From a virus, in the IMG/VR virus record IMGVR_UViG_3300046087_000207, positions 1-42,007 of that record: DNA of 42,007 nt; one strand, given 5' to 3'. Below are positions 6,069-40,851 of this stretch, piece by piece (the first letter of the stretch is position 1; the number at the start of each line of letters is the position of its first letter). A program made the translations under genes and the position numbers. Under the pieces are notes generated by a model that made no database searches, was not told the origin of the DNA, and saw only the letters and a program-made list of their open reading frames with translations.

Positions 6069-6232
6069 TATTTATTTCCGAATATTTTATCTATAATTAA
6101 ATCTACAAAGCAAGCTGTTATTGTTATAGCTAATATTATTGTAATATTATTACTATTGAATATCAGAAATATTAAATAATGTATTACTATTATTTGAAGA
6201 ATTCTTAAAAGGATTCTTATGTTAATCATCAT
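6068..6232 (-). CDS. Small two-span membrane protein (54 residues)
   Basis: A 55-codon frame begins MMINIRILLRILQIIVIHYL, and its ATG overlaps the integrase stop (ATGA). A GGAG lies five bases upstream, inside the integrase coding end. Two hydrophobic stretches (IVIHYLIFLIF and ITIILAITITACFVDLII) would give two membrane spans joined by the short SNN loop. Size and topology resemble small phage membrane proteins, such as class II holins or superinfection-exclusion proteins. Neither role can be assigned from sequence alone, and no lysin is adjacent. Confidence 0.55.
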   Translation of the reverse strand: MMINIRILLRILQIIVIHYLIFLIFNSNNITIILAITITACFVDLIIDKIFGNK

Positions 6233-7302
6233 TTATCTCCGAATATTTTCTTGTTCATACTGCTTACCACATCAGTTATATGTGATTGGGAAAGATGACT
6301 ATAACGACTTACCATTTGCAAAGATTTATGACCTAATATTTCAGCTATTTCTGTAGCGGTAGCACCATTCATAGCCAGGTAACTAGCAGCACAGTGTCTT
6401 AAATCATGAAATCTAAAATCTTTTATATTAGCTTTTTTGAGAACTTGTTTCCATTTATATTCTATGGTTATATGTTTAGTAGAAATTTTACTTACAAATA
6501 CATAACTATCATTACTTTTTTTATAATCACTAAGCCATTGTAATAATTCAAAAGCTTTCCCTACTAAAGGCAATCTTCTAATCTCATTATTTTTAGTCTC
6601 ATATAAAATAATTGCATTTTTATCTAAATGTACATCTTTCCATTTTAAAGTAAGTAACTCCATTTTTCTTGCTCCTGTACTAAGAGCAAGTATTACTAAA
6701 ATATATAAATCAGGATATTTTTCTCCTTTGCATACATCAAGTATAGTATCAAGTAGATGCTGACGTTCTGTATCAGTTAGATACCTAACTCTCCCTCTTG
6801 GTTCTTTTAATTTAGTAATATTTCTTGTTGGAGATACTTCAAGCCAACACCATTCTTTAATAGCTACATTAAATGCATGATTAAGTACTGCCATATATCT
6901 ATTAATAGTACTTGCGGATCTTTGTTTTTTTATATCTAATTCTAATTGAGCTAATTTATCTCTGGCTTCTACAATCATAGCAGTAGTGATTTCATTTAAA
7001 TTATAATTACCTAATTGTTTTTTCCACCAAAGTAATTGAGGCCCTTGTTTAGCAATAGATTCAGGCTTTCTAATTAAAATATTATCTATATAACGTTCTA
7101 CTAAATCACTAAAACTATGTTTTTCTTTTGTTCCTTTGAAATATCTTTTTTCCCTAATAGCAGCTTCGGTAATGGAAGCCCATTTTTTGCCATCTGCTAA
7201 TTTATCAAATGTACAACTGACAGAAGGAGCTCCTTTTATATCAATTCTAACTCGATAAGAAAATGACTTGTCTTTTTTAAAACGTTTTTCAATACTTGCC
7301 AT
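6229..7302 (-). CDS. int: Tyrosine recombinase, phage integrase
   Basis: The 357-residue protein has the usual arrangement: an N-terminal arm-type DNA-binding part (SIEKRFKKDKSFSYRVRID), a SAM-like core-binding domain (about 62-160) and a C-terminal catalytic domain. The catalytic set is complete: R212 in STGARKMELL, K237, H299 and R302 in HDLRHCAASY, H325 in LGHKSLQM and nucleophile Y334 in SRYSHL. Integrases of this type insert phage DNA at a host site and, with an excisionase, remove it. The gene follows a 60-residue gene with no gap and precedes a small membrane gene by ATGA overlap. The promoter for the operon is at 7533-7561. The attachment site is not visible with certainty. Confidence 0.95.
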   Translation of the reverse strand: MASIEKRFKKDKSFSYRVRIDIKGAPSVSCTFDKLADGKKWASITEAAIREKRYFKGTKEKHSFSDLVERYIDNILIRKPESIAKQGPQLLWWKKQLGNYNLNEITTAMIVEARDKLAQLELDIKKQRSASTINRYMAVLNHAFNVAIKEWCWLEVSPTRNITKLKEPRGRVRYLTDTERQHLLDTILDVCKGEKYPDLYILVILALSTGARKMELLTLKWKDVHLDKNAIILYETKNNEIRRLPLVGKAFELLQWLSDYKKSNDSYVFVSKISTKHITIEYKWKQVLKKANIKDFRFHDLRHCAASYLAMNGATATEIAEILGHKSLQMVSRYSHLSQSHITDVVSSMNKKIFGDK

Positions 7303-8175: not shown

Positions 8176-8581
8176 ATGTCAATTGACCTTATAGACGCTT
8201 TAGTTAAACATTTAAAAACTGATTATAATGCTTTTATAATGTAATAGTTTTGGTTTTGACTATATAAACAAAGATAATTTAATAAATGTAATCTTTGCCT
8301 TTCTATCAGGAACTGTAAAAGTTGCCTATACTACTAAAACTGATAAATTTAGAGGAAATTTTATTCAAAAAGAAGGAGTCACTGAAGTAATAATGTATCG
8401 TCCTATATTTATTAATTTAGTTAAAACTAAAAATATTGAAGTTATAGAAAGAATGACACGTTATGATTTAGCTCCTAAATTACATATATATGATATAGAA
8501 AGCTTTAATGAGACGGATTATGATAATTTATGTCAACAATTAGAAAAATTATTTAACCCTTTAAGTATGAGACTTGAATGA
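8176..8581 (+). pseudogene. Frameshifted gene ahead of the coiled-coil/chaperonin genes
   Basis: An ATG at 8176 opens MSIDLIDALVKHLKTDYNAF and stops at 8242 (TAA TAG). Shifting by one base at that stop gives an open frame from about 8243 (NSFGFDYINKDNLINVIFAF, then GTVKVAYTTKTDKFRGNF) running to 8581, including an internal ATG at 8393 that could give a 62-residue product. Read together the two parts make a protein of about 134 residues with even charge and no motif I recognise. Its end overlaps the next start (ATGA). It is either a one-base frameshift mutation, an assembly error or a recoding site. No classical slippery heptamer is visible. Confidence 0.55.
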
Positions 8582-9426
8582 ATAACAATGCAGTACGTAC
8601 AGAATTATTAAATATATATACTTATTTAGACTATTTATTACAAACAGTTGATAAATTATTAGAAGAAACACCGACTGATACGGCTAAAAATATATATCAG
8701 GCAGCATGGCTTTCTAAATGTTTAAATTTGCAAGAAATTCTAACTATATTCCAAAATCAAATTATCAATAAAAGAGAAAAGTTCAACCTAGTATTAGATA
8801 AAGCATTAAAAGAGCTAAATAATGATGTTGATACTAAAATTCAAACTAACTCTTTAGAAGAAGCTAGTATTCGTGAACACACTAAAGATTTAGCTAATGC
8901 AACTATTGTAAGTTCTGTAAATGCACTTGATAATATGTTTAGTACCCTTGAAGAAGATTTACAAAAAAAGTTTGAAATAACTGAAGCTGCTATTATAAGT
9001 CATGGTAAAGAAATTCATGAAATAAAAAATTATCTTCAACAAGAGCTTATTCCTGCGGTAATAAAATTAAATTCATTAATATCGCAAGAAACAACAACAC
9101 AGCCGTCACAAGTCAAAGAGCAAGAAGAAGGAGAAGAAGAATATAAATTTTTAGAGGATATAATATATAATAAAGGAAAAAAAGACAAAGAAAGTCAAGC
9201 TACTATAAAAGGTATTACTAAAGAAAAAGATAATAAACCTCCCAAATGGATTAAATATATAGATGAAGTAAAGCAAAAAATGAAAGAAAAAGGATGGAGT
9301 GAACATGAAGTTTCAGAACGTGCAAAAATTAACTTTAATTCATTTAGAAAATTTCAAAGAAAAGATCCAAAATTAACTAATGGAGTAGTTAATAAAATAC
9401 TAAAACTTTTTGATATAAATTATTAA
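8578..9426 (+). CDS. Coiled-coil protein with C-terminal HTH-like domain
   Basis: The 282-residue product starts MNNNAVRTELLNIYTYLDYL. Residues 1-170 are mostly amphipathic helix (LEEDLQKKFEITEAAIISHG), expected to form coiled coils. A glutamate-rich linker (QVKEQEEGEEEYKFLEDIIY) and a lysine-rich segment follow. The last 50 residues (VKQKMKEKGWSEHEVSERAK, INFNSFRKFQR) have the spacing of an XRE-like helix-turn-helix. It is translated from an ATGA overlap with the gene before it and ends 16 bases before the chaperonin. It may be a regulator or a scaffold linked to the chaperonin operon. The linker peptide KFLEDIIYN resembles KFLENIIYN in the virion protein at 16048-18858. Confidence 0.65.
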   Translation: MNNNAVRTELLNIYTYLDYLLQTVDKLLEETPTDTAKNIYQAAWLSKCLNLQEILTIFQNQIINKREKFNLVLDKALKELNNDVDTKIQTNSLEEASIREHTKDLANATIVSSVNALDNMFSTLEEDLQKKFEITEAAIISHGKEIHEIKNYLQQELIPAVIKLNSLISQETTTQPSQVKEQEEGEEEYKFLEDIIYNKGKKDKESQATIKGITKEKDNKPPKWIKYIDEVKQKMKEKGWSEHEVSERAKINFNSFRKFQRKDPKLTNGVVNKILKLFDINY

Positions 9427-9442
9427 CAACAAAGGAGACAAA

Positions 9443-11128
9443 ATGAGTATTAAAACAGTAGAAATTTATCATGGAGATGCTGCACGAAAACCAATGCTAG
9501 TAGGTATTAATAAATTTGCAAAAGCTGTAGGTTCAACACTTGGTTCACAAGGTAAAAATGTAATTATTGAAAAAGGAACTGAAGGACTTCATCAAATAAC
9601 CAAAGATGGCGTTACCGTTGCTAAAAGCATTTATTTTAAAGATGAATTAGAAAATTTAGGCGCACAATTAGTAAAAACCGTTACTGAAAAAACTGCTAAT
9701 TTTATTGGAGATGGTACTACTTCTAGCACTATTTTAGCTGCTGCTATGTGTAATGAAGGTTATGATTATATTCAACAAGGTATAAATACTGTTGAGCTTA
9801 AAAAAGGATTAGATTATGCAAAAAATAAATTTATTACATTCCTTGAAAGTTATGTAAATATTATAGCTGATAATAATGATGGAGAAATGGCTTATAAAAT
9901 TGCTACTATTTCTTCTAATTATGATGAAGATATAGCATCTACTTTACGTGATACCTTTAAAAAAGTAGGTAAAAACGGCGTTATAGTAGTAGATAAAGAA
10001 ATTCAAGGTTCGGAAAAAACTAAAACCATGCATTTAGATCTTATTGAAGGATTTAGAGTAGAAAGCGGTTATATTAACAATAATTTTATTATCGGAAATA
10101 GTGCTAACAGATGGGAAGCTAATGACTGTAGAATTTTAGTATTACCTATGGATATTACTAATTTTCAATTTATTATTCGTATTGTAGAACACTGTGCAAG
10201 TAAAGGAGATCCTATACTTATAATTGCTAATGATTTTACCGGAGATTCCGTTATAAGCATGCTACAAAATAATGCTCACGGTAAGGTAAAAATATGCGGT
10301 ATTAAAAGTCCTTCTATAGGAGAAGAAAAAGCACAAATATTAGAAGATATATGTATCTATACAGGTGCTAAATACCATAAAACTTCCGATGGTAGATTTA
10401 GAGAAGATATTACACCTAATTTTTTAGGCATAGCAAATAAAGTAATAGTAGAACGTACTCATACCACTATTCTAGGCGGTAAAGGTGATCCTATAATGAT
10501 TCAAAATCGTGTAGATAGCATTACTACTGATATTGAATCAGGTACATTAACCGCTTATCAAAGAACTTATTATCTAGCACGTAAAGCCCAATTACTAGGA
10601 CAGGTTGCTATGATTAAAGTATGTGGTCAGACCGATACCGATTTATCTGAAAAGTTAGACCGGGTTGATGATGCTGTGCATGCTACTAAATCTGCTATCA
10701 CTTATGGTTATGTAGCTGGAGGAGGATCAACATTATTTAAGATTGCTCATTTTATGAAAAAATTAATAATTCCTGAAAATACAAATGGATTCAATGCCGG
10801 AATATTAGTGTTTATTAAAGCTTTAAAAGCTCCTATTTCTAAAATTATTAGCAATACTACAGGCTTAGAAGATGTTACGGAATATTTAAATAAAATTAAT
10901 AAATCAAATAATAAGGATATATCAATATTTGGTTTTGACGCTAATACTTCTAGTATAGTTGATATGTTAGATACAAATATTATCGATCCATATGAAGTAG
11001 TAAAATATGCAGTATTAGATGCTGCTGCTGTTGTAGGAATATGGCTTACTACAGATACTGCCGTAATTAATGTTCGTAAAGATGCAACTGAAAATTTGCG
11101 TGAGTTATTACTTGGAAATGTAGTTTAA
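9443..11128 (+). CDS. Divergent phage GroEL-like chaperonin
   Basis: The 561-residue protein is a full-length group I chaperonin (Hsp60, usually about 545). The equatorial nucleotide site is intact: GDGTT at 89-93, with D90 matching GroEL D87. ITKDGVTVAK, VDDAVHATK (GroEL D398 region), YVAGGGST and the late VDMLDTNIIDP stretch are also present. Departures from the host type include LGSQGKN in place of LGPKGRN, a diverged apical domain, and no C-terminal GGM repeats (it ends ELLLGNVV). An AAAGGAG site lies 6 bases before the ATG. No GroES gene is in the window. Related chaperonins of giant phages EL and OBP fold phage proteins. I infer assistance to virion or other phage protein folding, alone or with host GroES. 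Confidence 0.93.
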   Translation: MSIKTVEIYHGDAARKPMLVGINKFAKAVGSTLGSQGKNVIIEKGTEGLHQITKDGVTVAKSIYFKDELENLGAQLVKTVTEKTANFIGDGTTSSTILAAAMCNEGYDYIQQGINTVELKKGLDYAKNKFITFLESYVNIIADNNDGEMAYKIATISSNYDEDIASTLRDTFKKVGKNGVIVVDKEIQGSEKTKTMHLDLIEGFRVESGYINNNFIIGNSANRWEANDCRILVLPMDITNFQFIIRIVEHCASKGDPILIIANDFTGDSVISMLQNNAHGKVKICGIKSPSIGEEKAQILEDICIYTGAKYHKTSDGRFREDITPNFLGIANKVIVERTHTTILGGKGDPIMIQNRVDSITTDIESGTLTAYQRTYYLARKAQLLGQVAMIKVCGQTDTDLSEKLDRVDDAVHATKSAITYGYVAGGGSTLFKIAHFMKKLIIPENTNGFNAGILVFIKALKAPISKIISNTTGLEDVTEYLNKINKSNNKDISIFGFDANTSSIVDMLDTNIIDPYEVVKYAVLDAAAVVGIWLTTDTAVINVRKDATENLRELLLGNVV

Positions 11129-11138
11129 GGAGATAAAA

Positions 11139-11321
11139 ATGAGAGAAGAACAATTTAGATTATATTGGCTACAATGTTTACAAATGGCACTTGCTTATAA
11201 TCCAGAAAATCCTGAAAAACAGAAAGAAATAGCCGATATTTTATTTGAATCTATTATAAGTATACCGAAAAAAGAGAGTAAAACTGTTTTAGAATCTGCT
11301 TTACATAAAATCAAACATTAA
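11139..11321 (+). CDS. Hypothetical 60-residue helical protein after the chaperonin
   Basis: The start MREEQFRLYWLQCLQMALAY is preceded by AAGGAG, and the gene begins 10 bases after the chaperonin stop, so the two are co-expressed. The sequence is mostly helical (NPEKQKEIADILFESIISIP) and ends in lysine and histidine. It is far shorter than GroES (about 95 residues) and lacks its mobile loop and beta core, so it is not a co-chaperonin of known type. Function is unknown. Confidence 0.6.
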   Translation: MREEQFRLYWLQCLQMALAYNPENPEKQKEIADILFESIISIPKKESKTVLESALHKIKH

Positions 11322-12424: not shown

Positions 12425-12682
12425 TTATTCATAATGGTACCTACATTGAATTATTATTAAATTATTATCTTCTATTTTATAAACTAATCTATGTTCTGTA
12501 TCTATTCTTCTGGACCAATATCCTGTCATGTCAAATTTTAGTGGTTCAGGTTTTCCTATACCAGTGAATGGATCTCTTAAACAATCTTTTATAAGTTCAT
12601 TTATACGTTTTAGCATTTTTTTATCAGTTTCTTGCCAATATAAATGATGTTCCCATCCCTCTTTAGAAAATAAAAGATTCAT
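12425..12682 (-). CDS. yoeB: YoeB/Txe family toxin (ribosome-dependent mRNA endonuclease)
   Basis: The 85-residue protein matches E. coli YoeB along its whole length (YWQETDKKMLKRINELIKD, KPEPLK, YWSRRIDTEHRLVY, CRYHYE). The catalytic residues fall at the family positions: E46, R65, H83 and Y84. YoeB binds the ribosomal A site and cleaves mRNA there. Only the antitoxin keeps it inactive. The ATG overlaps the antitoxin stop by ATGA, the usual arrangement of the family. On a phage-plasmid such a pair would stabilise inheritance or interfere with rival phages. All key residues are intact, so the toxin should be active. Confidence 0.93.
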   Translation of the reverse strand: MNLLFSKEGWEHHLYWQETDKKMLKRINELIKDCLRDPFTGIGKPEPLKFDMTGYWSRRIDTEHRLVYKIEDNNLIIIQCRYHYE

Positions 12683-12948
12683 TTTTCACTTATCTCCATT
12701 AAATCTTTTAAATCTTTTTTTATAAATTTTTTCTGTTTTACTTCTTCCATAGCTTCATATAAAAGAATTGCATTTTTAGGGCTTTTTAAAAGATAAAGTG
12801 TTTCTTGAATTGAGTTATAATCTTCCTCTGAGATCAGTACTGCTTTATTCTTTTTTCCAACAATATATACTGGTTCATGAGAATCCACAGTATAATCAAT
12901 TAGCTTAAATAAATTTGCTCTTGCTTGGGTTGTGCTATATATTTCCAT
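12679..12948 (-). CDS. yefM: YefM/Phd family antitoxin
   Basis: The 89-residue protein has the YefM N-terminal DNA-binding and dimerisation fold: MEIYSTTQARANLFKLID, then EPVYIVGKKNKAVLISEEDY. Its C-terminal half (AMEEVKQKKFIKKDLKDLME) is charged and disordered-looking, the part that wraps around the toxin. GAGG lies 8 bases before the ATG. A perfect dyad (12972-12989) covers the -10 region, so the complex should repress its own operon as in E. coli. It is the first gene of a two-gene unit with yoeB. Confidence 0.92.
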   Translation of the reverse strand: MEIYSTTQARANLFKLIDYTVDSHEPVYIVGKKNKAVLISEEDYNSIQETLYLLKSPKNAILLYEAMEEVKQKKFIKKDLKDLMEISEK

Positions 12949-13307: not shown

Positions 13308-13967
13308 TTATATGTCAAATTTTTCATTAAAAACATAATTATATAATGTTTTTATCTCAAGAATTGCTTTTTGATCCTGGGCTTTGAGTTCGGTTATTGC
13401 TTTTCCTTCTGCTGCTGCATTACCAAAAACTTTTCTATTACATATGATTGAATCTGTTAGCATTTTTATATTATTTGTATCTTTAATAAATTTCTGTGCT
13501 TCACTGTTATCTAATCCTCTGGAATCTGCTCTATTTAAAAAAGCACATGATTGAATATTAGGATTAATTTGTTTGATCTCTTCAATAACATTAGATACTG
13601 CTTCAAGAGTCCATAAATCAAAACTCCTTGGAACAAAAGGAATTAACAAAATATCTGCTATTGAAAGAGCAGCACGTTGACTTACCGTATCTCTACCACC
13701 GGTATCTATTATAATATCGCTATAATTGGCTTTTAGTTTTAAGATTTCAGTCCTTACAGCTTTTCCAGTTAACTTTATACATGTATATTGAGGAAGTTTT
13801 TCTTCTTCTTTACTATTTCTTAAAATAGAAAAATCATATGATGTTTCTTGATCATCTGCATCGACCAATAGAATATTAGGCTTTTCATAACTCCTCATAA
13901 TAGCGATGTTTGTTGCAATTGTAGTTTTGCCCGAACCGCCTTTTATTCCACCAACTACTATTATCAT
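13308..13967 (-). CDS. parA: ParA-family partition ATPase
   Basis: The start at 13967 (MIIVVGGIKGGSGKTTIATN) is preferred. The longer frame from 14012 would begin inside the operator and adds residues before the first strand, where ParA proteins begin. The product has 219 residues, with a deviant Walker A KGGSGKTT at 9-16, Walker A' strand LLVDADDQ and switch IIIDTGGRD. Small ParA proteins of this size lack a DNA-binding N-terminus and rely on an RHH partner, which is the next gene. They distribute plasmids or phage-plasmids over the nucleoid. A promoter and a large palindrome lie directly upstream, inside the end of the previous gene. Confidence 0.88.
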   Translation of the reverse strand: MIIVVGGIKGGSGKTTIATNIAIMRSYEKPNILLVDADDQETSYDFSILRNSKEEEKLPQYTCIKLTGKAVRTEILKLKANYSDIIIDTGGRDTVSQRAALSIADILLIPFVPRSFDLWTLEAVSNVIEEIKQINPNIQSCAFLNRADSRGLDNSEAQKFIKDTNNIKMLTDSIICNRKVFGNAAAEGKAITELKAQDQKAILEIKTLYNYVFNEKFDI

Positions 13968-13971
13968 ATAT

Positions 13972-14010
13972 GACCTACTTAATATGTCTACTATAGGCCT
14001 ATAGTAGGTC
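13972..14010. promoter_or_regulatory. Palindromic operator/centromere candidate of the partition pair
   Basis: A perfect 20-bp palindrome (13988-14007, ctactatagg/cctatagtag) sits inside a wider inverted pair, GACCTACT (13972-13979) and AGTAGGTC (14003-14010). The same TAGGTC word recurs before the RHH gene. Confidence 0.65.
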
Positions 14011-14028
14011 AAAAATATTAGTTGTCAA
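14001..14028 (-). promoter_or_regulatory. Promoter of parA
   Basis: Reverse-strand TTGACA (14028-14023), a 16-base spacer and TACTAT (14006-14001). The -35 box lies in the last codons of the 677-residue virion gene and the -10 box inside the palindrome, so the pair can be expressed independently of the virion operon. Confidence 0.55.
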
Positions 14029-24693: not shown

Positions 24694-27300
24694 TTATACT
24701 GGATTAACCACAAACCATTGAACAAAGGAATTATCTCCTGCCGCTCTAGATACAACTCTAAAACTACCATTAGCTATAGTATTCACTGATATAATACCAA
24801 CTGCTCCTACACTAGTTAAAAGAGTAAGAAATATTCTTGATGTTGTTTTACATGCAGTAGTATTTACTGTTACATCAGTAGTACCATTTAATTGAACTGA
24901 TCCGACAGTTCTGTTTGCATTGCTATTAGCAGTAACAACTAAATTAGCTATTGAATTAACAGCCACTGCTGTACCTGTAGCTCCAAGTATCATAGTATTA
25001 GAATTTGAAACTTGCGCTCCATTACCAATTGCAGCAGCATTAGTTAGACTTCCAACAGTTGAATCAGCATTGGCACCAATAAATGTACATCCATTATTAC
25101 CATCAAAAGAATCTCCTGCAGACTGTCCTACCGCTACATTGTTTCCTCCCGTGATGTTTACTTGTAAACTTTGAGTACCTAAGGCAGTATTATTAACACC
25201 GGTTGTATTAGCTTGTAAGGTAAAATAACCCAATCCAGTATTATTTCCTCCGGTAGTGTTTACTTGTAAGCTATCATAGCCTATACCTGTGTTTTGAGTT
25301 CCAGTGCTATTTAATCGCAAGCTTTGAAACCCAACTGCTGTATTACTTCCTCCGGTTGTATTTGATAATAAACTTTGAAATCCAACTGCCGTATTCTGTA
25401 TTCCTGTTGTGTTAGTAGAAAGAGTATTAAAGCCTAAAGAAGTATTTTGTGTCCCTGTAGTATTAAGCTGCAAACTAAAGCTACCTAAAGCTGTATTGTT
25501 TCCTCCGCTTGTATTAGATTGCAAACTTTGATATCCAATTCCAGTATTTAATGTACCTATGGTATTTGATGTTAAGCTCTGAGTTCCAAGTGCTGTATTT
25601 TGAGCACCAGTGCTATTTGTAGATAAACTATTAAATCCAACGGCGGTGTTTTGGGTTCCTGTCGTATTTAATTGTAAACTAGAAGCACCAACTGCTATAT
25701 TCTGTATCCCAGTAGTATTTAATTGTAAACTAGAAGCACCAACTGCTATATTCTGTATCCCAGTAGTATTTAATTGTAAACTAGAAGCTCCAATTGCTGT
25801 GTTCTGTATCCCAGTAGTATTTGATTGTAAACTAGAAACTCCAACTGCTGTGTTATCTGAACCAACAGTATTTGAATTAAGTGCATAAGATCCAAAAGCT
25901 GTGTTTGTATCACCAGTAGTATTTGATTCTAAACTAGAAACTCCAATTGCTGTATTACCTGAACCAACAGTATTTGAATTAAGTGCATAAGATCCAAAAG
26001 CTGTGTTTTGTACCCCAGTAGATATCACACTTCCAGTATTAATACCAACTGCTGTGTTATTAGTACCAGTAGGAAGTGGTGAAGGAACTGAATTAGCACC
26101 AAAAAAGAAATTATTAGATATTATATCATTATAAATAGGCATAGTATAAGGAGTGGCATAAGCAGCAGCCACATTAATACCGACTAATCCATTTGATAAT
26201 CCCCCTAGATTAACTTGATTAGGTAAAGATGGATTTGAACTAGATACCCAAAAAGTAGCTGAACTAGGAGCACCAGGATTACTTGGAACGTTATATAATT
26301 CAGAAGTATCAGTAAAATAAGCATATCTTTCCTGATCTTTTAAAAGATAAGTATTTATTCCACCAAGAGTAGAAACTGTAATATTAAAACCACCGGTAGT
26401 ATTATTATAAATATCATATTTATTTACCTGTACAGGAGTAAAATAAACATTAATATTATTAGATAAATTTCCAGAAAATATTATAATATTATTACTAGAT
26501 TGAGCAGTAGTTAAAGTTATATTAATACTTGCAGATACATCTAATTCAAGTAATGAATCAGTACCAAAATTTAATCTTCCAATCCCAATAGCATTGTAAT
26601 TAGCACCTCCAGTAATAAAAGTAGAATCTCCAGGAGCAAGACTTAAATTAGAAGCATTATTAATAGTATAACCAAGAGGAGGTTGTAGAGTTAAAAGTCC
26701 ACCAACTGTACTATTATTAATAACGCCAACTATAAATCCATCTACAGGAGAAGGAAGAATAATATTATTAGTGCCGCCGGTATAACTAAGTATTGATCCA
26801 CGATCACTAGGCTGAACTGTATAAGCATTTGTTATTACTGTTTCAGGAAGATTAGTATTAATTTTTGAATTAGTTAATGAAGAAAGTCCATAACCTGATA
26901 AAGCATTAGCATTTGCACCCGAACTACCTGTACCAAGTAATAATACTTCCCACTCGCCTTCGCTACTTGTATTATCGGTTACAGTGCACTGATAAAGTTG
27001 TCCTACTGAAATAGTCGCTAAAGAAGTAACGCTATTATCATAAATAGTAAATGCAAGGCTACCTGCATTAAATATCTGAAACGATCTACCTGTTCCAACT
27101 AAATTAGCAGGAGGAAAAATAAATTGATTGCCGGAATTACTAGTAGTCACAGACATTATTTGCGCAATTATATACTGTGAATTTGCATTATTCTCAGGCC
27201 ATGCAAAAGTAAAATTACCGGTTAAAGCAATCGGTGCATATCCATATTGACTAGGTGATGTAGGAAATAAAGAAAAGGGATTATAAAAACTAGATACCAT
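24694..27300 (-). CDS. Tail fibre with 18 tandem 17-residue repeats
   Basis: The 868-residue protein starts MVSSFYNPFSLFPTSPSQYG, a short virion-anchoring segment. A beta-rich shaft runs to about residue 410. A regular tract then contains 18 copies of a 17-residue unit, consensus NTAVGxxSLxxNTTGxx, and the protein closes with a C-terminal domain (TSVGAVGIISVNTIANGSFR ... FVQWFVVNP) of a type common at fibre tips. The N-T-A-x-G repeat resembles trimeric left-handed beta-roll stalks of YadA-like heads and several phage fibres. It should form a trimeric receptor-binding fibre. The start overlaps the adaptor stop by one base. Confidence 0.85.
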   Translation of the reverse strand: MVSSFYNPFSLFPTSPSQYGYAPIALTGNFTFAWPENNANSQYIIAQIMSVTTSNSGNQFIFPPANLVGTGRSFQIFNAGSLAFTIYDNSVTSLATISVGQLYQCTVTDNTSSEGEWEVLLLGTGSSGANANALSGYGLSSLTNSKINTNLPETVITNAYTVQPSDRGSILSYTGGTNNIILPSPVDGFIVGVINNSTVGGLLTLQPPLGYTINNASNLSLAPGDSTFITGGANYNAIGIGRLNFGTDSLLELDVSASINITLTTAQSSNNIIIFSGNLSNNINVYFTPVQVNKYDIYNNTTGGFNITVSTLGGINTYLLKDQERYAYFTDTSELYNVPSNPGAPSSATFWVSSSNPSLPNQVNLGGLSNGLVGINVAAAYATPYTMPIYNDIISNNFFFGANSVPSPLPTGTNNTAVGINTGSVISTGVQNTAFGSYALNSNTVGSGNTAIGVSSLESNTTGDTNTAFGSYALNSNTVGSDNTAVGVSSLQSNTTGIQNTAIGASSLQLNTTGIQNIAVGASSLQLNTTGIQNIAVGASSLQLNTTGTQNTAVGFNSLSTNSTGAQNTALGTQSLTSNTIGTLNTGIGYQSLQSNTSGGNNTALGSFSLQLNTTGTQNTSLGFNTLSTNTTGIQNTAVGFQSLLSNTTGGSNTAVGFQSLRLNSTGTQNTGIGYDSLQVNTTGGNNTGLGYFTLQANTTGVNNTALGTQSLQVNITGGNNVAVGQSAGDSFDGNNGCTFIGANADSTVGSLTNAAAIGNGAQVSNSNTMILGATGTAVAVNSIANLVVTANSNANRTVGSVQLNGTTDVTVNTTACKTTSRIFLTLLTSVGAVGIISVNTIANGSFRVVSRAAGDNSFVQWFVVNPV
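25141..26058. repeat. 51-bp tandem repeat array in the tail-fibre gene (18 units)
   Basis: Eighteen consecutive 51-base units keep the 17-residue period exactly over 918 bases. Some neighbours are nearly identical (NIAVGASSLQLNTTGIQ and NIAVGASSLQLNTTGTQ) and the NTAFGSYALNSNTVGS unit occurs twice, which points to recent unit duplication. The copy number is probably variable. Confidence 0.9.
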
Positions 27301-31316: not shown

Positions 31317-32219
31317 TTAAAAACCTTGACAACAAATAGTTGACCTAGCATTACTTGGACCGCTTGAATAACGATCAAAACCACCCATACCAACAGTTCT
31401 ATTCTTTTCATCCATCCATGAAGATACTTCAGCCATGTTTTTCTCATAGAAAAGCAATCCGTTTGGACATGTTGTAAATAAGAAGAATGAGTTAGGATTA
31501 GTTAAGTAAGGATTAACCACGTAACCACCTTTTACAAATCCTTGATGATATACAACACCGATATCACGATTAGCAGTACCAGGACGTTCAGCATTAAATA
31601 ACACTCGAGCCACGTCATATTGAAGAGTTGGTGAACAAAGTAATTTATCACCTTCATAATTTAATACTTTACCAGCAGCATCAGGTAATGTCTGAGCAAT
31701 TGTGATCATATCTGTAAGAGCTGTCTCACTAAAAGTAGCAGGAGAAAGAACATTAGAATACACACCAACTGCTGTTGGATGTTGACTTGATGCAAATGCT
31801 TGACCATCACCGATTGGATTAGTATTATTAAACGCAAAATTAAATACGTTAGTAGCATTTACGTCACGAGTTAATACTAAAGAAGCTTTAATTTGCTCCC
31901 CAGCGTTCGGAAATTCATCAGTATATAAATTATCGTCTATTGATTCAAAAGTGAACTCGATGGCAGATGAAAAGCTTGTATGATCGTACTGCGTTTTATT
32001 GATAATGAAGTTAGTTTGTAGTTCATATGCTTCACCTTCGTTCATTGCTTTCGCATATCCCATTGGTGCATATTCGACAACTATATCAAATGCTTTTTTA
32101 GTTGGAACTAGCTTAAAATACTTTTTATATAAGCTTTCATAATATTTAGCATCACATAATACTAAGCTTAATCCAGGCCACATAAAATTTATAATTTGTG
32201 ATCTTGTTACTTGTGCCAT
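31317..32219 (-). CDS. Major capsid protein (probable HK97 fold)
   Basis: The 300-residue product shows the order of features of Mu-F/HK97-like capsid proteins: an early helix and E-loop-like stretch (FDIVVEYAPMGYAKAMNEGE, YDHTSFSSAIEFTFESIDDN), a spine helix region with GEQIKASLVLTRDVNATNVF, and a P-domain/A-domain pattern with NYEGDKLLCSPTLQYDVARV and VNPYLTNPNSFFLFT. The end has ERNR-like charged turns (DEKNRTVGMGGFDRYSSGPS). A GAGGAG site and a strong promoter about 650 bases upstream suit a highly expressed gene. The probable scaffold gene lies upstream, as in P22-like phages. Confidence 0.8.
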   Translation of the reverse strand: MAQVTRSQIINFMWPGLSLVLCDAKYYESLYKKYFKLVPTKKAFDIVVEYAPMGYAKAMNEGEAYELQTNFIINKTQYDHTSFSSAIEFTFESIDDNLYTDEFPNAGEQIKASLVLTRDVNATNVFNFAFNNTNPIGDGQAFASSQHPTAVGVYSNVLSPATFSETALTDMITIAQTLPDAAGKVLNYEGDKLLCSPTLQYDVARVLFNAERPGTANRDIGVVYHQGFVKGGYVVNPYLTNPNSFFLFTTCPNGLLFYEKNMAEVSSWMDEKNRTVGMGGFDRYSSGPSNARSTICCQGF

Positions 32220-36640: not shown

Positions 36641-39199
36641 TTAAAGTTGCTGTAATTTACTTGATATCTCAGTCAGTTTAATCTTCGCAGCAATATTAGC
36701 TTTCTCTATTTCCTTCTCACGATCTATCATTGCTTTTTGAAGCGTAGTTTGTTGAACAATTTGCGCTTTTTGAAGTTCAGTTTGAGCTTTAATATTATCA
36801 GTCTGCGCACGTTGTTCAATCGCATGAGCATCAACTTGAACTTTTTGAGCCTCCACTTCAACTTGATTTTGCATAACTTGATTAGGGTCAAGTGGTGGTG
36901 GAATCTGCGTGGCTGCTTGTTCTTGCTGTTGTTGATCTTGAGCAATAGTTTGTGCTTCCATAAGAGCAATCTGATTAAGTATAGATGAATCAAGCTCTGA
37001 TATATCTTCAGGTAATTTAAATTCTGCAATTTCCTCTTCAGGTGCTCCTTCTTGAGCAAGGCTTTGTTTAATTTGCTCTTCAATTTTATTTAATGCGTCA
37101 AAGAATTTTCTTTGTGCCATTAACATAGTTGCATTATTTAATATAGGTTGCTTAGTCTCAGGAGGTAAATCTTGTGCTGCATTTAATGAATCTATAAAGA
37201 CTTGTAATGCTAATATATAAGACTCCTGATCTTGATCCTTAAATGCTTTTACAGGTTGTCCTGCCATTAGAGATGCAGTCTCTATCATTGGAGTCATTGG
37301 CGAGATTTGTGCTTCAGGTTTTAAAATCTCATCAGGATTAAAATCTAAATTGGTTACATAATTACGTAATATATAATCTACGTTAATTTGAGTATATTTA
37401 TCTGCTAAATTAAGTAAGTTTTCATACTTAATCATATCAATATATTGAGATGATACTTTACTATTAGCAATAGGAGTAATAATTACATTAGGATCATTAA
37501 AATTAAATTCATTAAGTAATTCTCTAAACTCAAAACTCATATATTGAGGATCAATTAAATGAGCATATTTCTTAAGTTGTGTTAAAAATATTCTATATTC
37601 ACGAGTTAAAGCATCATAAACACCACGAATAATAAAATTAGGTATTTTAGAAGCTTCATCTATCATCATCATGATAGAACTTGCAGGAGTATTAGCACCA
37701 ATATTACCTATATCATTTAAACTTAAAGTAATCTGATCTACACCTTGTTCGTAATATTGCATCAATTCAGATAACGAAGGAGATGCTTGTGGAAAGGGCA
37801 GCGGACTAATTTGTTCAGATAATTTAAAATTTCCACCAGTATCAATCGGTATCATACTACCAGGGAATAATACTTGCGTGGTATTAGTATTCTTAATAGC
37901 TTTATTAACTAATACTGTTGGATGACTTGAATAAGCACCGGCATTAGCAATCATTCTGATCTTATTAGTAGCTGATTTAACTAATGGAGCAGCCAAGTGT
38001 AACAATCCCCAGTTCCAACTTTCGGAATTAGGAAAATATGAACTTTTTACGTAATTTTGAATAGTTTTGAAATTAGGATCATCAGACTCCCAGAATTCAT
38101 GAATAGCTGCAATTCTTCCTGAAGAAATATCAATATCAATTAAATATGGCAAATCTCTTTCAACTGGTGGCTTATAATCCCCCAAATCTCCAAAATCATT
38201 TAATTTATATCTAACTCTAACTTGATAAAATTCATAGACGTTATCATCTCTATCTTCACTCCCATCAACCATATCATCATCATACTCATCATCATCTTCA
38301 CCATAGCCAGATCCAATAGGACGATAGTTATATTCAAGAAAATCTTTATTAGCAATTTTAGCATCTAACTCAAATTTACTCATATGAACACGTTGAGATA
38401 TACGAGTAGCATCATCAGCACTACGTGAATACGGATTAACTTCAATATCTAATGCAGGTAAATAATAATTAACAAGTTTCTTCTCGGTTGAATCATAATA
38501 GATTTTTTGATAAACATTTCCTTCTAAAGCTAAATCATAAAAAGAATTCCTTTTATCTTCTTTGTAATTAGGAATAGCTAAATTAAAATATTGATTAATA
38601 AAATTCTTAAGCTTAATAGCTTTATTTTTTAACTCACTTGTTCCTTCTGTAATTGAAAAATTGATAATTTCTTCGCCTAAGAAGATAGAGGATAATGTTG
38701 ATGTAGCTTTAATTATAGCATTATTTAAGGCATAAGATTTATCAGATGACATTTGCTTACGACCCTCTATTATTTGACTGTCAGAACTTCTTGAATCATC
38801 TTTAGTGCGTATATTAAACTGCTCTTTACCTTCTCTTATATTATCTAACCATTGTTCCCGAGATTTTTTATCATTATCAAGATTATCCATTACATCTTTC
38901 GCAATAGATTGTCTTGTATGTTCAGGTATTAAATCAGCTATATTTTTTAATTCATAGATTAAATCAGTTTGAATTTTTTCATTATCTTGATCAATTACCT
39001 TCTTACCTTGTTGCATTTCATTATCAAGCATATCTTCTTGTTCTTGACCTTTATTCATCTCAAGATTAGCATTAAACAAATCATTAATAACATCCTCTTG
39101 TTCGTTATCTAATTCTCGCTCTAAAGATTTATTCTTTTGCTCTATATTATTAACTAATTTCTCTTGGTGAATTTTGTTGAATACATTTTGTAGGTTCAT
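36641..39199 (-). CDS. Portal protein (P22/SU10-like, large)
   Basis: The 852-residue protein is of the long portal class. After an acidic coiled-coil start it has WLDNIREGKEQFNIRTKDDS, a helical wing, a beta core with YDSTEKKLVNYYLPALDIEV, RISQRVHMSKFELDAKIAN, a clip/stem region around NPNVIITPIANSKVSSQYID, and a C-terminal coiled coil (about 765-852) rich in Gln, Lys and Ala, like the barrel of P22 gp1. Twelve copies form the channel through which the terminase packs DNA. It follows the large terminase gene by 8 bases. The acidic stretch DDDEYDDDMVDGSEDRDDN around residue 302 is an unusual loop. Confidence 0.85.
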   Translation of the reverse strand: MNLQNVFNKIHQEKLVNNIEQKNKSLERELDNEQEDVINDLFNANLEMNKGQEQEDMLDNEMQQGKKVIDQDNEKIQTDLIYELKNIADLIPEHTRQSIAKDVMDNLDNDKKSREQWLDNIREGKEQFNIRTKDDSRSSDSQIIEGRKQMSSDKSYALNNAIIKATSTLSSIFLGEEIINFSITEGTSELKNKAIKLKNFINQYFNLAIPNYKEDKRNSFYDLALEGNVYQKIYYDSTEKKLVNYYLPALDIEVNPYSRSADDATRISQRVHMSKFELDAKIANKDFLEYNYRPIGSGYGEDDDEYDDDMVDGSEDRDDNVYEFYQVRVRYKLNDFGDLGDYKPPVERDLPYLIDIDISSGRIAAIHEFWESDDPNFKTIQNYVKSSYFPNSESWNWGLLHLAAPLVKSATNKIRMIANAGAYSSHPTVLVNKAIKNTNTTQVLFPGSMIPIDTGGNFKLSEQISPLPFPQASPSLSELMQYYEQGVDQITLSLNDIGNIGANTPASSIMMMIDEASKIPNFIIRGVYDALTREYRIFLTQLKKYAHLIDPQYMSFEFRELLNEFNFNDPNVIITPIANSKVSSQYIDMIKYENLLNLADKYTQINVDYILRNYVTNLDFNPDEILKPEAQISPMTPMIETASLMAGQPVKAFKDQDQESYILALQVFIDSLNAAQDLPPETKQPILNNATMLMAQRKFFDALNKIEEQIKQSLAQEGAPEEEIAEFKLPEDISELDSSILNQIALMEAQTIAQDQQQQEQAATQIPPPLDPNQVMQNQVEVEAQKVQVDAHAIEQRAQTDNIKAQTELQKAQIVQQTTLQKAMIDREKEIEKANIAAKIKLTEISSKLQQL

Positions 39200-39207
39200 A
39201 CTAAGGC

Positions 39208-40851
39208 CTATTGATAGTTGAAAATGTTAAAATCGGGTTCATTCTCTGGTTCTTCATAAATATCTTCATGAATTAATATTTTTTCACGTTTGAGAGTTAT
39301 AAGAACTTGACTCATGGTATCAATAATATCATTACTTGAATGAGATGGGAAATTTATGGCTGCTTCTAATAATTCTTTAGCATGTTTAAATAATTTTTTA
39401 CTTTTAAAGGACTCTCGCACATAAACTCTTCCACTAGCTATTTCAGGTAAAGTTGACCTAGCTCTTGCAACTTTACCACCATGACCTTGAGGATTAAACC
39501 CTCTGGTAGGAATGCCTGCCATATATAATTCATTCATTAACGGATCACCAAGAGTCTTAGTTTCTATTAATACATAATCTACAGGTCTTTTACCTCCTAT
39601 AGGATTATCATAATCAGTATCTTTATAATTATGAGCCATTCTTTGAGCCATCTCTCTCATTACGTGAAATTCTATATGACCAGCATAAAGCTCTAATAAC
39701 ATAATGCAGGTAAGACCATAGAAATTTTTAAACACTCCCCAAGTAGTACATACTGACATACAAGGGTCTGAACTTTCATCAGCTTTCTTACCAACCAAAG
39801 CAGTGTCCCATGATTGTATAATACGTTCAAAATCAGGAGCATGCTCCTCATCCCAAATCATGAAATCATCTTTAGTAAAGATACCGCCTTGCATTGGTGA
39901 TGGTCTTTGTTGATATAATGAAGCATATGCAAATGCCCCTTTAATTTTCTTTTCTTGTTCAATATAACGTTTAGGATGTTTATCAGGCCATAATAAATCG
40001 CCTTCATTATGTCTTGGGTCAGACCATTTTTTATTATTAGTTGAAGGTAATATAATAGTTGAACAACGATGAGCTTTCTCAAATTCCATAGGTAATCTTA
40101 GATGCACAACATTCTTTTGATTCTCTAAAACATGCCCAGTTAAATCTTCCATATGAGGCCTATGTTGTAATATAATCTTACAACCTGTTTGCTTGTCATT
40201 AAGACGATCGCTCATAGTACGATCATACCAATTGTTTACAGCTGTTCTTCTAGCCTCAGAGTCCATATCTTCAATGGAATTCGGATCATCCAGTATTATC
40301 TGATCTCCACCCATACCGACACCACCTCCAACAGAGCAAGCAATACGATATCCTTTTTTATTATTGGAGAATTTTACAATAGCATTGTTATCATCTCTAA
40401 GTTTAAATACATTTCCAAATATTTCTTGATACCACTGGCTATTAATTAGATCTCTACATTTCAGAGAATGCTCATTAGAAAGTTTAGCAGCATAAGTACC
40501 ACATAAAAATTTCTTCCACGAATCACCTATTCCCCACACCCAAGCAGGATACATTATTGAAATGATAGAAGATTTCATACAACGAGGAGGCATGTTAACT
40601 ATCAAGAAGTTAATATCACCTCTATTACATGCTTCTAAATGCTCTGCAATAGCTTGTATGTGCCAGTTATCATAAAAGGTAACATTTAATCCCTCTAAGG
40701 CTGTCCAAGCATCCTTAATAAACAAATAAAAATTGTCTTTGTATTTTGCTTGTTGCTGCAATGCATAGTCAGATACGTAATTTGTAGTATCAAGAATGGC
40801 AAATTTCTGCTCTAATGTTAAAACTTTCTTATGAAAACTTAATCTATTCAT
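39208..40851 (-). CDS. terL: Terminase large subunit
   Basis: The 547-residue protein has both domains of a packaging motor. The ATPase part contains a deviant Walker A NMPPRCMKSS at 86-95, in which methionine replaces the glycine before K-S, and Walker B IILDD at 185-189. The nuclease part has QSWDTALVGKKAD, VLIETKTLGDPLMN and the late acidic HSSNDIIDTMSQ, giving the three-acid RNase H-like site. It cuts concatemeric DNA and drives it through the portal. The start overlaps the small subunit gene by 8 bases. Variants of the R-x-M-K-S kind occur in other terminases, so the enzyme need not be inactive. Confidence 0.92.
   Translation of the reverse strand: MNRLSFHKKVLTLEQKFAILDTTNYVSDYALQQQAKYKDNFYLFIKDAWTALEGLNVTFYDNWHIQAIAEHLEACNRGDINFLIVNMPPRCMKSSIISIMYPAWVWGIGDSWKKFLCGTYAAKLSNEHSLKCRDLINSQWYQEIFGNVFKLRDDNNAIVKFSNNKKGYRIACSVGGGVGMGGDQIILDDPNSIEDMDSEARRTAVNNWYDRTMSDRLNDKQTGCKIILQHRPHMEDLTGHVLENQKNVVHLRLPMEFEKAHRCSTIILPSTNNKKWSDPRHNEGDLLWPDKHPKRYIEQEKKIKGAFAYASLYQQRPSPMQGGIFTKDDFMIWDEEHAPDFERIIQSWDTALVGKKADESSDPCMSVCTTWGVFKNFYGLTCIMLLELYAGHIEFHVMREMAQRMAHNYKDTDYDNPIGGKRPVDYVLIETKTLGDPLMNELYMAGIPTRGFNPQGHGGKVARARSTLPEIASGRVYVRESFKSKKLFKHAKELLEAAINFPSHSSNDIIDTMSQVLITLKREKILIHEDIYEEPENEPDFNIFNYQ

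Follow-up and report, generated by a model that had tools for sequence, protein, structure and literature searches.

The window, by which we mean the whole 42,007-nt stretch of DNA analysed here (an IMG/VR virus record, 30% GC, partial contig), encodes a divergent full-length GroEL that is probably an active, phage-dedicated group I chaperonin and, judging from its sequence, plausibly works without host GroES or with a changed partner preference. Every sibling contig long enough to cover the region carries the gene, and a compact phage would here spend about 1.7 kb, out of a genome of roughly 48 kb, on a folding machine of its own, kept in every sibling seen. The features on which the analysis rests are listed in the table.

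Table. Chaperonin gene, its neighbours and other features of the window
Feature	Positions	Strand	Remark
RNA polymerase alpha-CTD protein, 206 aa	4569-5189	-	near integrase
Tyrosine integrase	6229..7302	-	PHROG 1 integrase, 2e-64
ORF opening the cluster, 62 aa	8393..8581	+	overlaps next gene; conserved 7/7, 80-97%
282-aa protein immediately 5' of GroEL	8578..9426	+	16-nt gap to GroEL; conserved in 7/7 siblings, 46-88% identity
Shine-Dalgarno sequence AAAGGAGA	9431..9438	+	from sequence; 4 nt before ATG
GroEL-like group I chaperonin gene	9443..11128	+	561 aa; Pfam, PHROG, PDB, NCBIfam matches; present in all seven long contigs, the window among them
GDGTT nucleotide-binding motif (E. coli D87 region)	9707..9721	+	from sequence and alignment
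Apical domain, about aa 202-389	10046..10609	+	boundary from apical-domain PDB matches
Codon for catalytic Asp (E. coli D398), within VDDA	10670..10672	+	from sequence and alignment
60-aa ORF 3' of GroEL	11139..11321	+	in 4/6 siblings; not GroES-like
RelE-like toxin with adjoining antitoxin-like gene	12425-12948	-	PHROG 1213, 2.8e-16
ParA-family partition ATPase	13308-14012	-	end of structural gene block
Tailspike	24694-27300	-	
Capsid	31317-32219	-	
Portal-like	36641-39199	-	
TerL	39208-40851	-	

The chaperonin ORF is intact and complete, and its identity follows from the agreement of four independent libraries, namely, Pfam (Cpn60_TCP1, PF00118; residues 26-541, E 2.5e-50), PHROG (5725 groEL, 3.9e-107), NCBIfam (GroEL models, up to 5e-127) and solved GroEL structures in the PDB (residues 7-547, 1e-96). 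The protein scores above the cut-offs of the GroEL subfamily models NF009487 and NF000592, while its 411.8 bits against TIGR02348, the NCBI equivalog for canonical bacterial GroEL, lie below the curated cut-off of 582. Structure prediction, which an earlier reading of the sequence alone had proposed as a check for the apical domain, gave an AlphaFold2 model that is of middling quality (mean pLDDT 73), in which the three GroEL domains are present and which Foldseek aligns with GroEL structures over ~535 columns (E 1e-42). The protein thus has the whole-length, three-domain Cpn60 homology of group I chaperonins. The sequence-only reading described it correctly as a full-length, divergent GroEL, and the Shine-Dalgarno sequence ahead of the ATG agrees with the strong ribosome site claimed there.

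All seven members of the phage family, aligned residue by residue with 37 cellular GroELs and 23 others, most of them viral, keep T30, D52, D87, T89, T90, D398, G414-416 and D495 of the nucleotide site (E. coli numbering), with P33 replaced by S or A and T91 by S, while of the 138 positions that do not vary in cellular GroEL, 60 are not retained throughout the family. The nucleotide site had been read as intact, and the alignment bears this out: the catalytic residues are all retained, with no loss of ATPase residues in any member, and the protein appears ATPase-competent. The C-terminus (..RELLLGNVV) lacks the GGM tail. Its difference from host chaperonins at this end was thus noted rightly, but 22 of the 23 further non-cellular GroELs in the comparison lack the tail as well, so that its loss is a usual property of phage GroELs and not special to this one. 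K105, A109 and R452 are replaced in the phage family; these, with E461/V464, whose columns are alignment-dependent, are positions that we take to be inter-ring, and the three replacements are suggestive of altered ring stacking.

The gene is found in the same neighbourhood in all seven long contigs (the window and six siblings, all incomplete), with protein identities of 81-98%. Its dN/dS, 0.17-0.30 over six sibling comparisons, clearly indicates purifying selection, although the capsid (0.03-0.06) and TerL (0.04-0.11) are more constrained. The shared position, the identity and the dN/dS values together identify the chaperonin as a conserved, selected phage gene.

No GroES (PF00166/Cpn10) was detected in the window or in five siblings by a search that was positive in control genomes, nor was Cpn10 found in the three longest, near-complete siblings even at E<=10, in agreement with the earlier claim that none is encoded. 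Pfam would miss a lid unlike Cpn10, for example T4 gp31; a comparison of ten small ORFs with PHROGs found neither a GroES nor a T4-gp31-like lid among them. In the E. coli protein, L234, L237 and V264 are contact points for the GroES mobile loop, and replacement of N265 by Ala blocks GroES binding (PMC3514286). The equivalents of the three contact residues are I/H/R, V and Q/E in the phage family, where the 37 cellular sequences have L/I/V, L and V/L; V264 is changed to Q or E in all seven family members, and L234 to H or R in four siblings. No stretch of 33 residues is better conserved in cellular GroELs than the helix I segment (aa 265-297; relative divergence 0.32), but among the siblings its relative divergence is 1.17, above average. 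The claim that the apical domain differs from host chaperonins holds at these contacts, and the altered groove fits a loss or change of GroES binding. However, the phage family retains N265, F204 and Y199, which also matter for the binding of GroES or substrate, and the protein could still bind host GroES.

The apical domain has also been exchanged between sister phages. The window and the sibling G002 differ at 24 of 147 apical and 10 of 282 flanking positions, whereas for G002 and G003 the counts are 2 of 147 and 22 of 282, respectively (Fisher p 2e-6, for a region chosen after seeing the data). This pattern shows recombination within the gene, by which the apical domain passes between these phages as a block. 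A second variable block, aa 430-495, has a relative divergence of 2.3-2.7 in the phage family and 1.6-1.7 in cellular GroELs; being variable in the latter too, it carries little meaning. A search for clients by correlating protein distances over the seven genomes, too few for the purpose, yielded no informative partner: the highest correlation with apical distance was 0.59, for an 88-aa protein, and the capsid reached 0.16. Tail fibre and capsid protein, proposed earlier as clients, are putative ones: the gene lies outside the structural module, and the divergence of the apical domain tracks neither capsid nor tailspike.

All structural genes, including that of the small terminase subunit, are on the minus strand. 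The chaperonin gene is on the plus strand at the integrase side of the genome, outside the virion module, and follows two conserved genes. It had been credited with its own operon; it is instead the third gene in a same-strand cluster (starts at 8393, 8578, 9443 and 11139). The 282-aa protein encoded always just upstream of it evolves faster and has a weak C-terminal match to a Cro/CI-type HTH (HTH_26, E=0.022, below the cut-off); it could be a regulator of, or helper to, GroEL. Promoter-like sites are no more numerous than in shuffled sequence, and an Rfam search gave no match. The integrase and ParA genes probably indicate a temperate phage; their joint presence makes a phage-plasmid or integrating lifestyle possible. 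The 206-aa protein encoded near the integrase carries a C-terminal RNA polymerase alpha-CTD (PF03118, 29.8 bits against a cut-off of 23.8) and partially matches the NCBIfam rpoA model, and may be a transcription-hijacking or activator protein. The RelE-like toxin and antitoxin-like pair was found only in the window, G002 and G003.

The sibling contigs measure 38.6-49.7 kb, the longest 47.7-49.7 kb. Because a tailspike homologue spans both ends of the 47.7-kb contig, the complete genome probably measures about 48-50 kb, of which the window covers only a part. The capsid and portal proteins are distantly related to those of phages of Pelagibacter (HTVC023P/027P), Roseobacter (CRP-901/902) and Caulobacter, the portal counterpart in CRP-901/902 being named a head-to-tail connecting protein, and the description of the phage as podovirus-like is accordingly reasonable.

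In phylogenetic trees the members of the phage family group together with full support, and the stem of their clade is very long. It lies outside the cellular GroELs in the full-set tree and beside Alphaproteobacteria, with low or no support, in reduced-set trees. Monophyly with the GroELs of small podoviruses (Elemovirus/Callevirus) is neither established nor rejected by an AU test (p 0.70), in which long branches are involved. EL/KPN8 and PBS1/MarsHill branch apart from the family, likewise on long branches, in the full-set tree, which does not include OBP and AR9 themselves. The phylogeny suggested earlier as a check separates the protein from EL and agrees with its not being a recent host copy; the deeper attachment varies between trees.

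Phage GroELs, those of small phages included, are already known, and the present one is a distinctive addition, not the first. A tblastn search of 50,697 phage records found GroEL in 260, many of them real and a few of them bacterial contigs filed as phage; a DNA-level search of sequenced phages gave no GroEL match. Among the mis-filed records, CAKLQH020000021.1 and AFYI01000007.1 carry bacterial chromosomal groES-groEL with housekeeping neighbours, and such records would distort phage GroEL counts. The sequence-only reading placed known phage chaperonins in giant phages, which does not hold: GroEL occurs in podoviruses, namely, the elemo phages of Flavobacterium (60 kb), Cellulophaga Calle_3 (73 kb) and ctfjg026 (61 kb). 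A 2017 survey also reported it from 36 marine genomes in a group of Bacteroidetes phages to which Cellulophaga podoviruses and phi38:1 belong; for MGII archaeal viruses it listed chaperonins in 38 of 58 genomes, the GroEL type in 20 (PMC5332604). Soil viral chaperonins, GroEL-like genes of uncultured viruses that are transcribed and translated (PMC8390657), resemble the present gene by description only.

The Elemovirus, Callevirus (phi38:1 group) and ctfjg026 proteins share with it full length, a small podoviral genome, the missing GGM tail and a divergent apical domain, but they are just 29-33% identical to it and are encoded next to or near a GroES gene, which was not detected here. EL gp146, OBP gp246 and AR9 gp228 are, like it, phage GroELs with the ATP site kept and no GroES. 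These three act without a co-chaperonin and belong to giant phages (EL 211 kb), whereas the present gene lies in a genome of ~48 kb; EL is ~25% identical, on a distant long branch. Alphaproteobacterial and other bacterial GroELs share the group I domain order, the catalytic residues and 36-39% identity, and differ in having the GGM tail, canonical GroES-contact residues and normally a GroES partner. What distinguishes the present case is that a temperate ~48 kb phage combines a GroEL of moderately canonical sequence with the lack of any detectable GroES.

The protein would most likely form heptameric rings whose apical domains bind non-native phage (or selected host) proteins and release them upon ATP hydrolysis. 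Divergence from host GroEL would have altered the GroES-binding groove, so that the chaperonin probably works without host GroES, as EL, OBP and AR9 do, or with a changed partner. Expression from a cluster that lies beside the integrase and a presumed immunity region and away from the virion genes may place it early or under lysogeny control, and precedent alone would suggest capsid or portal proteins as clients. The synteny, the dN/dS values and the retention of catalytic residues amid so many changed positions support an active phage-dedicated chaperonin, and the predicted model with its three domains is consistent with one. That the apical domain is a recombining specificity module shared between sister phages, in a GroES-independent chaperonin of a temperate ~48 kb podovirus whose GroES groove is freed from constraint, is a more tentative extension, which we hold to be rather doubtful.

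It is possible, if rather unlikely, that the chaperonin still uses host GroES, the phage supplying only the ring since host GroEL folds phage proteins poorly, and that the apical changes tune clients and not the lid. The retained N265, F204 and Y199, the still hydrophobic V237/V259/L263 and a similarity to canonical GroEL far above the 22% of EL agree with this, but the replacements at V264 and L234 affect direct GroES contacts, and the three small phages examined in detail bring their own GroES. Less probable still is a lysogenic-conversion (moron) gene, a second GroEL through which the prophage aids a stressed host or alters its proteome without a part in virion assembly: the integrase and ParA, the location beside the integrase and presumed immunity region on the strand opposite to the structural genes, and the frequency of secondary groEL copies on plasmids would suit it, yet conservation in all seven contigs exceeds that of neighbouring accessory genes and resembles a core phage gene more than a sporadic moron, and the apical domain is exchanged among phages.

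A protein that is no longer a foldase and serves as binder, decoy or assembly platform is improbable, given the complete set of catalytic residues and the purifying selection, even though many intersubunit allosteric positions are changed (R197 to S, E409 to Y, D83 to N, R452 to S). Recent capture of an ordinary host GroEL, or a bacterial contig mis-binned as viral, has almost nothing left in its favour beyond the mis-filed bacterial GroEL contigs that the phage collection does hold. Both are ruled out, the former by a best cellular identity of 39% in 385 genomes of Alphaproteobacteria and 299 of Pseudomonadota (about 680, with overlap between the sets), the latter by the phage genes flanking the chaperonin in seven contigs.

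The preferred reading, that of an active phage-dedicated chaperonin that works without host GroES or with changed partners, has two testable twists, lid independence and apical exchange. Since the protein can be compared residue by residue with textbook GroEL and no GroES was detected, it can serve to examine what a group I chaperonin requires when it has no lid, and the swapped apical domains are natural chimeras for mapping client choice.

The terminase is nearest to those of Roseobacter phages (37%), and a terminase-based genome scan gave relatives of just 30-39% from mixed taxa; no tRNA and no convincing tRNA-like attP were found. Along its full length, the phage integrase shares 50% identity with an integrase on Legionella adelaidensis plasmid 9 (NZ_LR134418.1, 8001-9068), which lies a few kb downstream of rpoD and is far closer than the other matches in the plasmid set; this similarity may be taken as a lead to the host.
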